A DNA stretch of 64,000 nucleotides from Candidatus Microsaccharimonas sossegonensis. GTDB lineage: Bacteria > Patescibacteriota > Saccharimonadia > Saccharimonadales > Saccharimonadaceae. Position 1 is the first letter of the stretch. Each line of letters opens with the position of its first letter. Under the pieces are notes generated by a model, which ran no database searches, was not told where the DNA came from, and was given only the letters and a program-made list of their open reading frames with translations. This document shows, in pieces, positions 22,856 to 29,019 of this stretch. The stretch lies in assembly GCA_004100325.1 (NCBI GenBank), contig SCKX01000001.1, positions 665,453 through 729,452 of the forward strand, in the 5' to 3' direction. A program made the translations under genes and the position numbers.

Positions 22856-24157
22856 CTAAAATGGCTTGTTGACTATCACTGGTACCGCTGAATCAATCTT
22901 CGAATTATTACCAAGTTGGCCTCCATTGTTAAATCCCCAGCAATAAGCAAGGTTGTCAGAGGCAATAATACAGGTATGAAAACTATTGCCAGTGGCGGAT
23001 ATAGATTGAGGTGTTTTGCCCGCCAGTGTGCCGCTCATCGTGACCGCAACCGGCACAGATGACAGAGCTGTCGTGCCATTACCAAGCTGGCTAGATGAGC
23101 CATCTCCCCAACAATAAGCATTGGTATCTGATGCAATCACACAGCTATGTAGCTTGCCGACAGCAAGCGAAGTAACTGTCTTGCCAGATAACATCCCTGA
23201 CGTCGTCACGGCAACAGGTGATGCTGACTGGGTGGTTGACCCGTTGCCTAGCTGACCTTCATTGTTTCGGCCCCAACAATAGACGTTATTGTCAGACGCA
23301 ATGACACAGGTATGAAGACCACCGGCACCCATAGCTTTGATAGTTTTACCCGACAGTACTCCAGACTGCGTAACGGCTACTGGTACAGCTGACTGAGAAA
23401 TGGATCCGTGAAGAAACAGGCTGTCCCCTAATTGACCCGATGAACTTAATCCCCAGCAGTAGGCGTTGTTGTCTGAGGCGATGGCGCAGGCATGGTATGC
23501 GCCGCTCGAGACCGTCTTGAGCGTTTTGCCTGATAACACACCCGATGTCGTCACGGCAACTGGTAATGATGACTGGGTGGTTGACCCGTTGCCTAGCTGT
23601 CCAAACAAATTTTCTCCCCAGCAGTAGGCGTTGTTGTCTGAGGCAAGCACACAAGTAAACTTGGCGCCAACCGAGATTGCCACAATCGTTTTACCAGACA
23701 GTGCACCCGACGTGTTTACAGCAACCGGTACTGATGAATCATTGGTTGTACCGTTCCCCAGTTGACCTGCGTTATTATATCCCCAACAATATGCGTTATT
23801 ATCAGATGCTATCGCACAAGTATGAAAATAACTGCTTGATATGGCTTTTATTGTTTTTCCAGCCATAGCACCGGACGTACCAACTGCAACCGGTGTTAAC
23901 GAATCCGCTGTTAACCCGTTGCCCAGCTGTCCATAGGTGTTAGAGCCCCAACAATATGCTGTATCATCTGTCGCGATCGCGCAGGAATGAGCATAGCCGT
24001 TTGCGATAGACTTAAAACCACCACCAGGACATGAACCTTGTTTAGCGCCACTGGAAGTAGAGGTTTGATCAATGTAGTACAGCACCGAAGTATCGACCGA
24101 CGAGATTGCATTGATACAAAATCTCGAAGCAGACGATGAAGCGATGCTAACTGTCAC
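22856..24157 (-). CDS. RCC1-repeat beta-propeller part of a split pilin fusion
   Basis: Seven tandem repeats of ~54-57 residues, each with C-x8-YCWG-x5-6-GQLG (for example AYCWGSNTYGQLGNG), the hallmark of RCC1 propellers; seven repeats make a closed seven-bladed ring. Every repeat has two cysteines, fitting an extracellular, disulfide-linked protein. No secretion signal of its own: the GTG at 24157 is only the first possible start after a TAA at 24221, and the frame upstream continues without shift into a prepilin N-terminus (24221-24400). Repeats are very similar at DNA level, so recombination between them is likely. Function: surface or pilus-borne binding domain (inference). Confidence 0.8.
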   Translation of the reverse strand: MTVSIASSSASRFCINAISSVDTSVLYYIDQTSTSSGAKQGSCPGGGFKSIANGYAHSCAIATDDTAYCWGSNTYGQLGNGLTADSLTPVAVGTSGAMAGKTIKAISSSYFHTCAIASDNNAYCWGYNNAGQLGNGTTNDSSVPVAVNTSGALSGKTIVAISVGAKFTCVLASDNNAYCWGENLFGQLGNGSTTQSSLPVAVTTSGVLSGKTLKTVSSGAYHACAIASDNNAYCWGLSSSGQLGDSLFLHGSISQSAVPVAVTQSGVLSGKTIKAMGAGGLHTCVIASDNNVYCWGRNNEGQLGNGSTTQSASPVAVTTSGMLSGKTVTSLAVGKLHSCVIASDTNAYCWGDGSSSQLGNGTTALSSVPVAVTMSGTLAGKTPQSISATGNSFHTCIIASDNLAYCWGFNNGGQLGNNSKIDSAVPVIVNKPF

Positions 24158-25803: not shown

Positions 25804-26193
25804 CTACGTTATATTTTGTTGGACTTTTGACTTCAAGAGCTCGTAGCGTCGCCTAGTTTCAGGCTCGCTTAGACGTTTCTCACGAACTGAACTAAAACCA
25901 CTAAGTGCGACGCTTGCGACTTGCAACTCTTGGTCGTCAGGGTATTGTGAGCGACTAGCGTCAAAAACAGTACCGTCGTCAAGAACGTTTCTGTAGTGGC
26001 TTTCCTCGTGTCCATTAAAGATAGTCGTAAGCTTTTGTAAATCACCACCTAGATAATCTTGAGCAACGAGGGCAGTCGGTACACACTGACCCCTACTTGC
26101 TTTTGTCTCGCTCCACTCACTAGGAGTGCTAGACGTTTCTTGTGTCCAACTATGCTCTAAAGCGGTTTGGAGTTGAGCTTTAGTTACTTCCAC
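25804..26193 (-). CDS. YunG-like protein
   Basis: 129 residues. It matches the layout I know from Bacillus YunG: ALEHSWTQETS, then RGQCVPTALVAQDYLGGDL, SHYRNVLDDGTVFDASRSQYP. The Cys in GQC and the His in SHY could form a papain-like active pair, but no activity is established for the family as far as I know. GTG start; overlaps the end of the MazG-like gene by 10 nt, so they are coupled. Island cargo. Confidence 0.7.
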   Translation of the reverse strand: MEVTKAQLQTALEHSWTQETSSTPSEWSETKASRGQCVPTALVAQDYLGGDLQKLTTIFNGHEESHYRNVLDDGTVFDASRSQYPDDQELQVASVALSGFSSVREKRLSEPETRRRYELLKSKVQQNIT

Positions 26194-26501
26194 TGTCTTG
26201 TGCGATTCTTCTTTTCTTTATCAACGACAGCACTAAACATATCCTCGTCTAGCATACTCGCAAGCCCAAGTAGGACGATTTGAACGTCAGCGAGTTCTTC
26301 TCTTAGCTCCTGTTGTTTTGTGGTGTCAGTGAATTTCATACCGACGTGCTTACGAATAGCTTTAGCTAGTTCGCCCACTTCCTCCATTAGCATTACGAGC
26401 TTTTTGCTAGCGTCCTCCGTATTGAAACCACGCTCTATGTTCATTTGCCATATGTACTTTTGTAGCTCTGTGAGCGAGTCGTTTTTTGGTAAATCTGTCA
26501 T
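26184..26501 (-). CDS. MazG-like nucleotide pyrophosphohydrolase
   Basis: 105 residues, all-alpha. LMEEVGELAKAIRK and LREELADVQIVLLGLASMLD give the EExxE...ExxD metal site of the MazG/all-alpha NTP-PPase superfamily. Such enzymes hydrolyse (d)NTPs or modified nucleotides; those on mobile elements are often house-cleaning or defence related. TATAGT ends 6 nt before ATG (leaderless). Coupled to the YunG-like gene. Confidence 0.85.
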   Translation of the reverse strand: MTDLPKNDSLTELQKYIWQMNIERGFNTEDASKKLVMLMEEVGELAKAIRKHVGMKFTDTTKQQELREELADVQIVLLGLASMLDEDMFSAVVDKEKKNRTRQWK

Positions 26502-26525: not shown

Positions 26526-26753
26526 TTATCGACCTTGCTCGTTGCGTATGTTGGTATTCGTAAAGCCTCGTTTTGCCATAGCCTCGTCAAAGGTTTTGTC
26601 CATATACGCAAGGTCGGCGAACCAGCCCATAAAAAGATAGTTACAGGTAACGCTACGCCAAAACCAGCCTTTAGCGTTACCCAAGTACCAGCGGTTAATC
26701 GGTAGTATGAAACTACAGGCGGTTAGTATTTTGTATGTTTTGCGGTCTTTCAC
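26526..26753 (-). CDS. TM2-domain-like small membrane protein
   Basis: 75 residues from GTG 26753, chosen because AGGAG lies 8 nt before it (the GTG at 26762 is only 1 nt from that site). Two hydrophobic stretches joined by RWYLGNAKGW and ending in WFADL resemble the TM2 domain, where a turn with Arg/His-x-Tyr-x-Gly and a final Asp are typical. Downstream of a structured RNA candidate that may control it. Function unknown. Confidence 0.65.
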   Translation of the reverse strand: MKDRKTYKILTACSFILPINRWYLGNAKGWFWRSVTCNYLFMGWFADLAYMDKTFDEAMAKRGFTNTNIRNEQGR

Positions 26754-26797
26754 GTCTGACACTCCTATTTAGGTTAGTTGCCCTCAAGAGTGCCAAA

Positions 26798-26936
26798 TAA
26801 AAAAGGACACCGTGAGGTGTTCTAAGCCTTTATCACAATAAGCGTCCGCCTACTGCTTACACGGTGCCCTTTTCAAAGTCGGACACCGTCGGAGTAAATC
26901 CGTCGGTTAGTCTTATTGTGATTAAAAGCTTAGAAC
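26798..26936 (-). ncRNA. Candidate structured RNA or attenuator, island-borne
   Basis: An extended -10 TGCTATAAT (26943-26951, minus) puts the start at ~26936. The RNA then begins with a ~24-bp helix closed by its own 3' region (26912-26936 with 26819-26842). Inside, ACGGUGUCC pairs with GGGCACCGU (9 bp). At the end ACACC-UCAC-GGUGU plus UUUUUU is a terminator. The same GGGCACCGUG can instead pair 10 bp with the terminator copy CACGGUGUCC, so two folds exclude each other. It could be a free RNA of ~139 nt or a switch in front of the TM2 gene, whose start is 45 nt further on. Confidence 0.6.
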
Positions 26937-27030
26937 TTCCTCATTATAGCAAAAACAGCGTATTTTGAGCTGTTTGTTACATATACCAAAAAACAGTTGA
27001 ACCCATAAGCTAAACGGTATAATTACAAGT

Positions 27031-28848
27031 ATGGCAAGTGAGAAAAAGATAAAGCGTAAGCACCAGCGTATACCCGTCAGCCAAGAACAGCTACGCAAGA
27101 CACAGGCGATAGTAGACGCTAGCCTTAAAGATAACCCAGATATGTTTAACTTGCCCGTGAGTAAGCACAGTGTAGAGCTACTAACCGACTATTTTGTTAA
27201 AACGAAAGCCGATACAACTCGCATATTGCCGAAAGAAAAACGCCGTTATGTTATCTACTGTCGTAAATCTACCGACGACGAAAGTAAGCAAGTCCGTTCA
27301 CTCGACGACCAAGAAAAAGAGTGTCTAGAGCTTGCCGAACAACTCGATATTAAAGTGCGAAAAGAGGACATTTTTAGAGAAAGTGCGTCAGCTAAAAAGT
27401 CAGGCAAACGCCCGATATTCGACCATATCATAGAGGGCTTTCAGACAAACAAATATCACGGCTTACTAACGTGGTCGCCCGACCGTTTGTCTCGCAATAT
27501 GAAAGAGGGTGGTGAGATTATCGAGCTTGTCGATTTAGAGCGTATACAGGACTTGCACTTTAAGACGTACCAGTTTGAGAACACGCCAAACGGCAAGATG
27601 TTACTCGGTATTCTGTTTGCGACCTCCAAGCAATATAGCGATAAGTTGTCCGTCGATGTAAATAGGGGTATTACAGGTAATATCACGGAGGGTAAATATA
27701 ACGGGAGCGTCAAAAAGGGCTATTATGCCAACCCCGACACGGGCTATTTTGAACCCGACAGCCTCAACTGGCACCTCATACGTCGAGCGGTCGTTATGCG
27801 AGCTTACGAGGGCAAAACAAACCAGCAGATAGCCGATTGGTTGAACGCCTCGCATTTGAGTGTTCGCCGAAACCGAGACGATACGCCAAAGCTAGCCAAA
27901 ATGAGCAAGAAAACCGTTGGCGATACGTTTGCCGACCCGTTTTATTGCGGTGTCTATCACTATGGCGAGCGTATAGCCAACCTCAACGAGCTGTACGACT
28001 TTATGCCACTTATGACCACTGACGAGTATGTAACTATCAACAGAGCGACCGCAGACACCTTTAACGAGAAGTACGTTGGTCGAGCTACCAAGTCCACTAA
28101 ACTCGATTTTGGCGTACTCCGAGAAAAAGTCATTTGCGATTATTGTGATACGGTTATGGAGTTTCAGCGTCAGCTTATTAAAAAGGGCAAAAACAAAGGA
28201 AGTTATACTATTCGCTACTACTGCCGTAACCGAGCGAGTTGTGAGCGACACCTCAAGAAAGACGAGTGTATAGCTAAGTATGGCAAGGTGCTACCGAAAA
28301 GCGTCAGGCTCAAAACTATCGCTCCAGCTATCGAGGACACGCTACGCCACTTAACCAAGAATACCGTCGAGGCTCACAAGCGGTATATTGAACGCCTGGA
28401 GCAACAAATTATCGTCGATAAAGCCATAGCCGAGCGTAAGCTACGCCAAGCGACTAGCGACGTAAAGAAACAGCAAGTCGAGTACGACAAGTATCTCAAT
28501 CTACACCTCAACCATACGTCAGACTACAATAAGTATCACAAGGGTAAGCTAGAGCAAACAGAGACACTGCTAAACGCCTACCGAGCAACACAAGAGCAAT
28601 CCAAGAAAGATTTAGCAAAACTGAAAGAGCCGTTGCCAACCCGTGAGCAGTTTGTTGAACTCGTCAATTCGTATCTTAAAATCGCCACTACTACACAAGA
28701 TTTGGTTGAGGAGGATGCAGTGTATAACGAAGTCGTGTTGAACCTCCGAGTTCGAGACGATGTTGTATCTGTTATAAAGCTAAATCCACCATACGATTTG
28801 ATGGTGGATTTAGAGAAAATTACATTTGGTGCGCGCGAGAGGACTTGA
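27031..28848 (+). CDS. Large serine recombinase (integrase)
   Basis: 605 residues. N-terminal resolvase domain with catalytic Ser in YCRKSTDD (~80) and the DRLSRN block; recombinase domain (LIRRAVVMRAYEGKTNQQIADWLN, read in parts); zinc ribbon (CDYC ... YYCRNRASC); long coiled coil; typical of phage- and ICE-type large serine integrases. An extra ~65-residue basic N-terminus precedes the resolvase fold. TATAAT, 7 nt, ATG. The stop codon lies 22 nt inside tRNA-Leu(CAG), convergent, which marks the island end. No second att copy was found by eye. Confidence 0.93.
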   Translation: MASEKKIKRKHQRIPVSQEQLRKTQAIVDASLKDNPDMFNLPVSKHSVELLTDYFVKTKADTTRILPKEKRRYVIYCRKSTDDESKQVRSLDDQEKECLELAEQLDIKVRKEDIFRESASAKKSGKRPIFDHIIEGFQTNKYHGLLTWSPDRLSRNMKEGGEIIELVDLERIQDLHFKTYQFENTPNGKMLLGILFATSKQYSDKLSVDVNRGITGNITEGKYNGSVKKGYYANPDTGYFEPDSLNWHLIRRAVVMRAYEGKTNQQIADWLNASHLSVRRNRDDTPKLAKMSKKTVGDTFADPFYCGVYHYGERIANLNELYDFMPLMTTDEYVTINRATADTFNEKYVGRATKSTKLDFGVLREKVICDYCDTVMEFQRQLIKKGKNKGSYTIRYYCRNRASCERHLKKDECIAKYGKVLPKSVRLKTIAPAIEDTLRHLTKNTVEAHKRYIERLEQQIIVDKAIAERKLRQATSDVKKQQVEYDKYLNLHLNHTSDYNKYHKGKLEQTETLLNAYRATQEQSKKDLAKLKEPLPTREQFVELVNSYLKIATTTQDLVEEDAVYNEVVLNLRVRDDVVSVIKLNPPYDLMVDLEKITFGARERT

Positions 28849-28913
28849 ACCTCCACGTCCTTGCGGACACTAGCACCTGAAGCTAGCGCGTCTACCAATT
28901 CCGCCACGCACGC
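28827..28913 (-). tRNA. tRNA-Leu(CAG)
   Basis: 87 nt with encoded CCA. Acceptor GCGTGCG pairs with CGCGCGC; anticodon loop TTCAGGT between CTAGC/GCTAG gives CAG; long variable arm as in tRNA-Leu. Its 3' end overlaps the recombinase 3' end. Transcript would begin ~29025 and includes two copies of its own 5' half before the tRNA. Confidence 0.95.
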
Positions 28914-29019
28914 ATTTGTGTCATGTGCGCTTGCGCGTCTACTCATATTTCGACCGCCACGCACGCATTTGTGTCATGTGCGCTTGCGCGTCTACTCATA
29001 TTTCGACCGCCACGCGCGC
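28914..29019 (-). repeat. Two tandem degenerate copies of the tRNA-Leu(CAG) 5' half
   Basis: Two 53-nt units (28967-29019, 28914-28966), identical but for one base. Each starts GCG(C/T)GCGTGGCGG, has an enlarged D-loop (TCGAAATATGA) and then GTAGACGCGC as in the tRNA, then non-tRNA sequence; each abuts the next unit exactly. Confidence 0.9.

Follow-up and report, generated by a model that had tools for sequence, protein, structure and literature searches.

A conserved leader RNA of Saccharibacteria, a candidate transcription attenuator upstream of surface and accessory genes

In the genome of Candidatus Microsaccharimonas sossegonensis (Patescibacteriota; Saccharimonadia; Saccharimonadales; Saccharimonadaceae), a short segment between a serine recombinase and a small membrane protein gene can apparently fold as RNA in two mutually exclusive ways. 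Is it a switch that controls the gene, an RNA in its own right, or a remnant of mobile DNA? The segment had been singled out in an earlier note, made from sequence alone, within a stretch of 64,000 nt (assembly GCA_004100325.1, contig SCKX01000001.1, positions 665,453-729,452 of the forward strand), which is the window referred to here and from whose first letter positions are counted. The elements listed in that note (a promoter box, a start at the base of a helix of about 24 bp, an inner 9-bp hairpin and a terminator with six U) were all found on the minus strand. The long helix joins 26936-26912 to 26842-26819, with G26936 as its first base, and the inner hairpin joins ACGGUGUCC (26889-26881) to GGGCACCGU (26869-26861). 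The rival pairing, of 10 bp, joins GGGCACCGUG (26869-26860) to CACGGUGUCC (26814-26805), a strand that directly abuts U6. The minimum free energy of the 156-nt span is -61.8 kcal/mol versus -35.0 ± 4.0 for its shuffles (z -6.8; 0/200 as stable), and the 138-nt leader scores 108 bits with the covariance model. The observation was thus confirmed, and proved larger in extent than first described.

Table 1. Features of the leader RNA and its downstream gene, in window positions
Feature	Position	Strand	Basis
-10 promoter element TATAAT	26943..26948	-	sequence; RNA start 7 nt downstream
Leader RNA, 138 nt, first P1 base to last terminator U	26799..26936	-	fold, covariance model
P1 + P2, 5' strand	26912..26936	-	pairing and two-sided changes, 94 copies
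Side hairpin P2b, CGGA with UCCG	26890..26902	-	sequence and fold
Strand d, ACGGUGUCC, rival of c for pairing with strand a, upstream of it (antiterminator-like hairpin)	26881..26889	-	
P3 5' strand GUGUCCG, overlapping strand d	26880..26886	-	P3 pairing on 94 copies
Strand a, GGGCACCGUG, apical loop, partner of d or c	26860..26869	-	alignments, shuffles
P3 3' strand CGGACGC	26842..26848	-	P3 pairing on 94 copies
P2 + P1, 3' strand	26819..26842	-	pairing and compensation in alignments
Strand c, CACGGUGUCC, 3' side of terminator and pseudoknot	26805..26814	-	a:c pairing
U6 run, intrinsic terminator	26799..26804	-	sequence; U run conserved
Shine-Dalgarno-masking hairpin of read-through mRNA, UUGGCACUCUUG (26796-26785) with UAGGAGUGUCAG (26767-26756)	26756..26796	-	fold
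75-aa small membrane protein gene, preceded by the leader	26526..26753	-	homologous genes

The structure is not a chance fold, because its homologues keep it. The covariance search asked for in the earlier note did find homologues, in which the long helix is kept with compensatory changes and not broken. In a MAFFT alignment of 26 copies, built without reference to any structure, the long helix is 98.4% paired over its first ten pairs (P1), eight of which are compensated, and the helix between strands a and c is 98.1% paired, with three pairs compensated, versus 32-55% for slid controls over both helices together. A second alignment, of 94 copies, was made with a covariance model (R2) that includes P1, P2 and P3 but not a:c. 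Here P1 is 99.0%, P2 90-94% and P3 91.4% paired, with two-sided changes at every pair of P1 and P2 and in 8/8 pairs of P3, counts that are biased towards the model behind the alignment. The a:c helix is 98.6% paired in the same 94 copies, and its compensatory pairs extend it to the base before the U-run; pair 109:285, for instance, is GC in 51 copies, CG in 35 and another standard pair in 4. Over the whole structure, two-sided compensatory change occurs in 30 of the 36 pairs, overall pairing is 95.7% (35-41% when slid) and the covariation score is 0.69 (0.05-0.07 when slid), and family-wide a:c scores 26.8 versus 14.1 in shuffles. The criterion for a terminator, a conserved stem with a U-run directly 3' of it, is met by a:c at 98-99% pairing. 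The conserved fold therefore consists of P1-P2-P3 plus the pseudoknot a:c, which is shown as far as the helices go; the coexistence of P1 with a:c would need a long pseudoknot reach and lacks three-dimensional support. The inner hairpin is present, but it competes with the better-conserved P3 (26886-26880 with 26848-26842), and a hairpin at the position of P2b is visible by eye in many homologues. Few unpaired bases are conserved, so that no pocket for a small molecule is evident.

How far does this RNA extend? At the DNA level, and with E up to 0.1, 28 genera were matched among 394 genomes of the same family, the weakest matches being due to chance (among the fetched loci, L027 and L028 were spurious), and a covariance model (R1) found the RNA in 147 of the 394 genomes and 31 of the 61 genera. 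In a sample of the phylum, R1 matched 14/286 genomes, the confident matches all coming from the same family or order, and R2 gave matches in 39 of the 246 genomes taken from the order, which added several further families. The named records of these contigs are Candidatus Saccharibacteria, some bins being labelled Nomurabacteria yet placed here in the same family. Since ordinary terminators elsewhere reach 41 bits, only matches above 45 bits with R1, or inspected by eye, were relied on. A wide bacterial distribution was rejected: the 3' motif occurs in Psychrobacter and Clostridia, but with at most 41 bits with R1, and these matches are ordinary terminators, mostly short, terminator-like and often on both strands. 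Weak matches elsewhere in the phylum (20-30 bits) were not accepted on the same grounds, and a viral origin was rejected with the exact 3' motif in 0 viral contigs.

The source genome contains two copies, the one studied (G000:C1 692252-692388) and another at 251121-251245. The latter reaches only 35.6 bits, but promoter box, P1 and P3 are all retained, and its a:c strands, though different (GGGCAGCC and GGCUGUCC), still match each other. With an E limit of 0.001, other genomes carry many more: 34 copies in G181 (about 0.8 Mb), 17 in G319 and 10 in G003. Two same-strand leader copies per locus were observed in L144 (259-572), L191 (1211-4427) and L192 (1243-1824), spaced by about 70 and 350 nt in L144 and L192.

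The statement that no named riboswitch class fits this RNA held for Rfam 15 (4227 families). At gathering score, the whole window gave tRNAs only; a search with 221 bases at E up to 10 returned only two chance matches, of 16.1 and 12.9 bits, and nothing over the leader RNA was found in 18 homologous loci. The family is absent from Rfam 15 and from the literature searched, while the supplementary motif lists of large screens could hold a prior description.

The surroundings of the RNA are regular. In 97 of 100 copies, a -10-like box precedes the first P1 base by no more than 14 nt, a finding that upholds, by consensus only, the proposal that the RNA starts at the first base of the long helix. 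Among the 96 copies with sufficient sequence, 91 are followed by a gene on the same strand, which begins a median of 44 nt past the U-run (10-90%: 28-70). Because of this promoter box and this same-strand gene at a regular short distance, we regard the RNA as a 5' leader and not as a free small RNA; the same genes argue against the self-contained RNA that had been left as a possibility. An N-terminal hydrophobic segment is present in 45 of the 91 downstream products versus 11 of 94 upstream neighbours. Pfam recognises among the downstream products DUF4352, Fib_succ_major, TM2, DNA methylases, the host cell surface-exposed lipoprotein, type IV secretion pilin, OmpA and others, and PADLOC type II and III methyltransferases. 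The downstream genes thus encode mainly surface or secreted proteins and restriction-modification enzymes; the shared metabolic theme that riboswitch genes usually have, though it is not a strict requirement, is absent among them, with no single pathway represented. The description of the RNA as island-borne does not hold in general, since a serine recombinase adjoins it in only 14 of 99 loci, and a functional link with the recombinase was rejected on this count.

Several features of the window were noted in passing. Two perfect 53-bp tandem copies and the start of a third occupy 28901-29006, overlapping the 5' end of a tRNA-Leu (cag) at 28827-28913 (-), whose 3' end is overlapped by the 3' end of the serine recombinase reading frame. 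Downstream of the leader-associated gene lie a MazG-like pyrophosphohydrolase (26184-26501, -) and a YunG-family protein (25804-26193, -), and at 22856-24157 (-) this 0.8-Mb bacterial genome encodes a 433-aa RCC1-repeat protein (Pfam E about 1e-82, RCC1-like domain).

The gene that follows the copy studied most likely starts, judging from its relatives, at GTG 26753, as had been proposed. Its family occupies 17 places in 295 genomes, two of them fragments, and 14 of the 15 near full-length genes have an intact RNA directly upstream; the remaining one, L283 (genome G017), retains just the leader's 3' half (1774-1828). At L283, different sequence stands in place of the leader promoter and 5' half, and the junction falls inside the RNA. 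The protein carries a TM2-like string, NRWYLGNxKG, and had been called a TM2 membrane protein. This label remains unproven and was dropped as unsupported: the protein does not match Pfam TM2 (PF05154) with E up to 0.01, and against true TM2 relatives a profile comparison gave 4%. The Shine-Dalgarno-masking hairpin of Table 1, at -21.0 kcal/mol for the segment in isolation, is also found in relatives with the same 75-aa gene. Such masking is weak family-wide (10.5 versus 9.2 ± 0.4) and was kept only for this gene subfamily.

The central claim of the earlier note was that one segment has two mutually exclusive partners. Its a:c half held strongly, and its d:a half is supported but less uniform. 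The d:a hairpin overlaps the 5' strand of P3, and therefore d:a and P3 plus a:c are alternatives. Family-wide, d:a complementarity is 14.7 versus 11.8 in dinucleotide shuffles (standard deviation of the mean 0.26), and the d:a columns are 66% paired versus 28-37% when slid; about one third of the copies exceed their own 95% shuffle limit, so that the pairing is not universal. In nested predicted folds, pseudoknots being excluded, strand a is paired upstream in 75 of 101 copies, and in 58.5/101 when the 28 nt upstream of a are shuffled. Because so many survive this shuffling, d:a as the rival fold is supported rather than proven, standing above the controls on average and not in every copy. The predicted energies for the copy at 26799..26936 are -54.8 versus about -44.0 plus -17.5 before the pseudoknot penalty, and over 101 copies the pseudoknot state gains -10.7 ± 3.0 before penalty. 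A gain of this size is of the order of usual pseudoknot penalties. By these model predictions the two states are probably close in energy, in this copy and in the family, with weaker support than the helices have.

What, then, does the RNA do? A conserved RNA with helices P1, P2, P3 and a:c, a promoter box in a constant position and a co-directional gene is shown. Since the gene lies at a constant short distance, together with promoter box and terminator, we read the RNA as a 5' leader controlling read-through, and since pairing is maintained up to the U-run, we take a:c as the terminator stem. Our preferred interpretation, to which we give a probability of roughly 0.6 in the absence of transcript or termination data, is a cis-acting transcription attenuator that forms a new RNA class in Saccharibacteria. 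In this view, transcription would begin at the first P1 base, and strand a would pair with the upstream strand d, the most likely antiterminator, which would keep a from the terminator and let the polymerase continue into the gene. Alternatively, P3 would form from its 5' strand and the downstream partner and so release a, which would capture c as it leaves the polymerase; the a:c helix, flush with the U-run, would then stop transcription and close a pseudoknot with the apical loop. Some signal (a metabolite, ion, protein, tRNA or physical cue) would shift the balance, and in the read-through mRNA of the 75-aa gene subfamily a further hairpin could mask the Shine-Dalgarno sequence. The direction of the switch, its signal and its physiological role in turning surface, secreted and restriction-modification genes on or off are inferred. 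As the downstream genes share surface location or accessory nature and not a pathway, a global cue, or a protein or RNA effector, may be suspected rather than a pathway metabolite. The resemblance to attenuators and riboswitches pointed out at the start is thus supported, since compensatory changes in homologues maintain the long helix as well as a:c, the terminator pairing; a riboswitch in the strict sense is not established, and the signal for switching is not identified. Against the attenuator stands a short local partner of strand c, GACACC before c, which could itself terminate; in a few divergent copies (L065, L066) this partner and c have changed in step.

Transcription attenuators are well known as a kind of element, and several precedents exist for parts of this one. 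In the HMP-PP (thiS motif) riboswitch (PMC6478431), as in the leader, conserved structure and intrinsic terminator have strands in common and a pseudoknotted fold may rival the terminator stem, which makes it the precedent for a terminator-sharing pseudoknot. The leader, however, is about twice as long, its terminator strand pairs with the apical loop of a long closed hairpin, its genes are not thiamin-related and no ligand is known. The attenuators obtained by premature-terminator analysis (PMC2965389) likewise place terminator/antiterminator alternatives between promoter and first start codon, but each of those families accompanies one gene type, whereas the leader precedes many unrelated accessory genes in many copies per genome. 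In ZTP and fluoride riboswitches, too, a pseudoknot competes with the terminator strand; the leader differs from them in its helices and conserved bases, has no Rfam match and no known effector. T-box leaders are also 5' leaders with a terminator/antiterminator choice, and strand a resembles part of the conserved T-box string, but there is no Rfam match (E up to 10), no specifier stem was recognised and the downstream genes are not amino-acid genes. LOOT RNA (RF03000) is another structured RNA upstream of a small membrane-protein gene, and one example (74 bits) was observed in the leader-bearing Saccharibacterial locus L009 (2677-2794), about 65 nt before such a gene; it is a separate element some 1.1 kb downstream of the leader, with no relation in sequence or structure. 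Within Rfam 15 and the papers searched, neither this leader family nor its architecture, nor its multiplication ahead of surface genes, has a prior description.

Among other explanations, two are unlikely without being excluded. The first keeps the leader and places control at translation or mRNA stability, with constant read-through and with c, the Shine-Dalgarno region and a strand e (a second copy of a past the U-run) swapping partners. It is favoured by c:e complementarity after the U-run (14.5 versus 12.2 ± 0.2 shuffled, enriched but not general), by a match of e to c over at least 8 bp in 27 of 29 copies of G181, and by the masking hairpin of the 75-aa gene subfamily, in which the segment corresponding to e pairs instead with the Shine-Dalgarno region. 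Against it, the U-run is conserved, a:c is kept flush with it, and neither strand e nor the masking hairpin is family-wide. The second takes as terminator the short local hairpin of GACACC with GGUGUC, in competition with the base of P1, and makes a:c the antiterminator. This local pairing is present in 93% of cells, and in L065 and L066 changes in strand a, the local strand and c go together; however, 28 of 94 copies no longer have the outer local pair, although that base still makes its P1 pair, the local hairpin is weak in the copy studied (-5.8 kcal/mol), and c would, by inference, be free only once the polymerase is at the U-run, late for an antiterminator.

A stand-alone, trans-acting small RNA with its own promoter, a constitutive terminator, the pseudoknot as its mature fold and an incidental neighbour gene is likewise unlikely. 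Promoter box and strong terminator in nearly all copies speak for it, as does a pseudoknotted fold more stable before penalty, but the co-directional genes are too regular for chance, with little room for a promoter of their own, intact 75-aa genes almost always carry the RNA, and nearly all inspected copies of G181 precede related secreted-type proteins. Finally, the RNA fold could be an accident of a palindromic mobile element or of a recombination site used by the adjacent serine recombinase. The divergent recombinase at both source-genome copies (as the earlier note had described for one) and the junction in L283 suggest this, but it is all but excluded by the family-wide contexts without a recombinase, by copies that differ in sequence with compensated helices and by the promoter box at the same place in each.

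Returning to the attenuator, its most extensive use is in G181, where nearly all of the 30 copies read stand ahead of a long reading frame 40-80 nt on. Most of these frames belong to two paralogous secreted-type families; Pfam recognises little in them, and an N-terminal hydrophobic segment is present in 25 of the 26 products above 60 aa. For 29 copies of this genome, the a:c pairing has a median length of 14 nt, and strand e matches c over at least 8 nt in 27. A bolder reading, possible and no more, is a lineage-wide, RNA-only regulon in which one attenuator class before many accessory genes (surface, secreted, restriction-modification) answers one global cue and, in one 0.8-Mb genome, has expanded to 34 copies, most of which precede secreted paralogues. 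There, the c of any terminated leader also matches the e of other mRNAs; if this reading is true, leaders could affect one another in trans, biasing the choice of surface proteins produced.

Saccharibacteria live on other bacteria with genomes of about 0.8 Mb, and their gene regulation is largely unknown. The leader adds an RNA class outside Rfam 15 whose terminator stem apparently belongs to a pseudoknot, and in G181 it marks more than 20 secreted-type family proteins as probably jointly controlled. A switch-like leader before surface and secreted genes would offer a concrete handle on this regulation, with a start, a terminator and mutations expected to lock it on or off.
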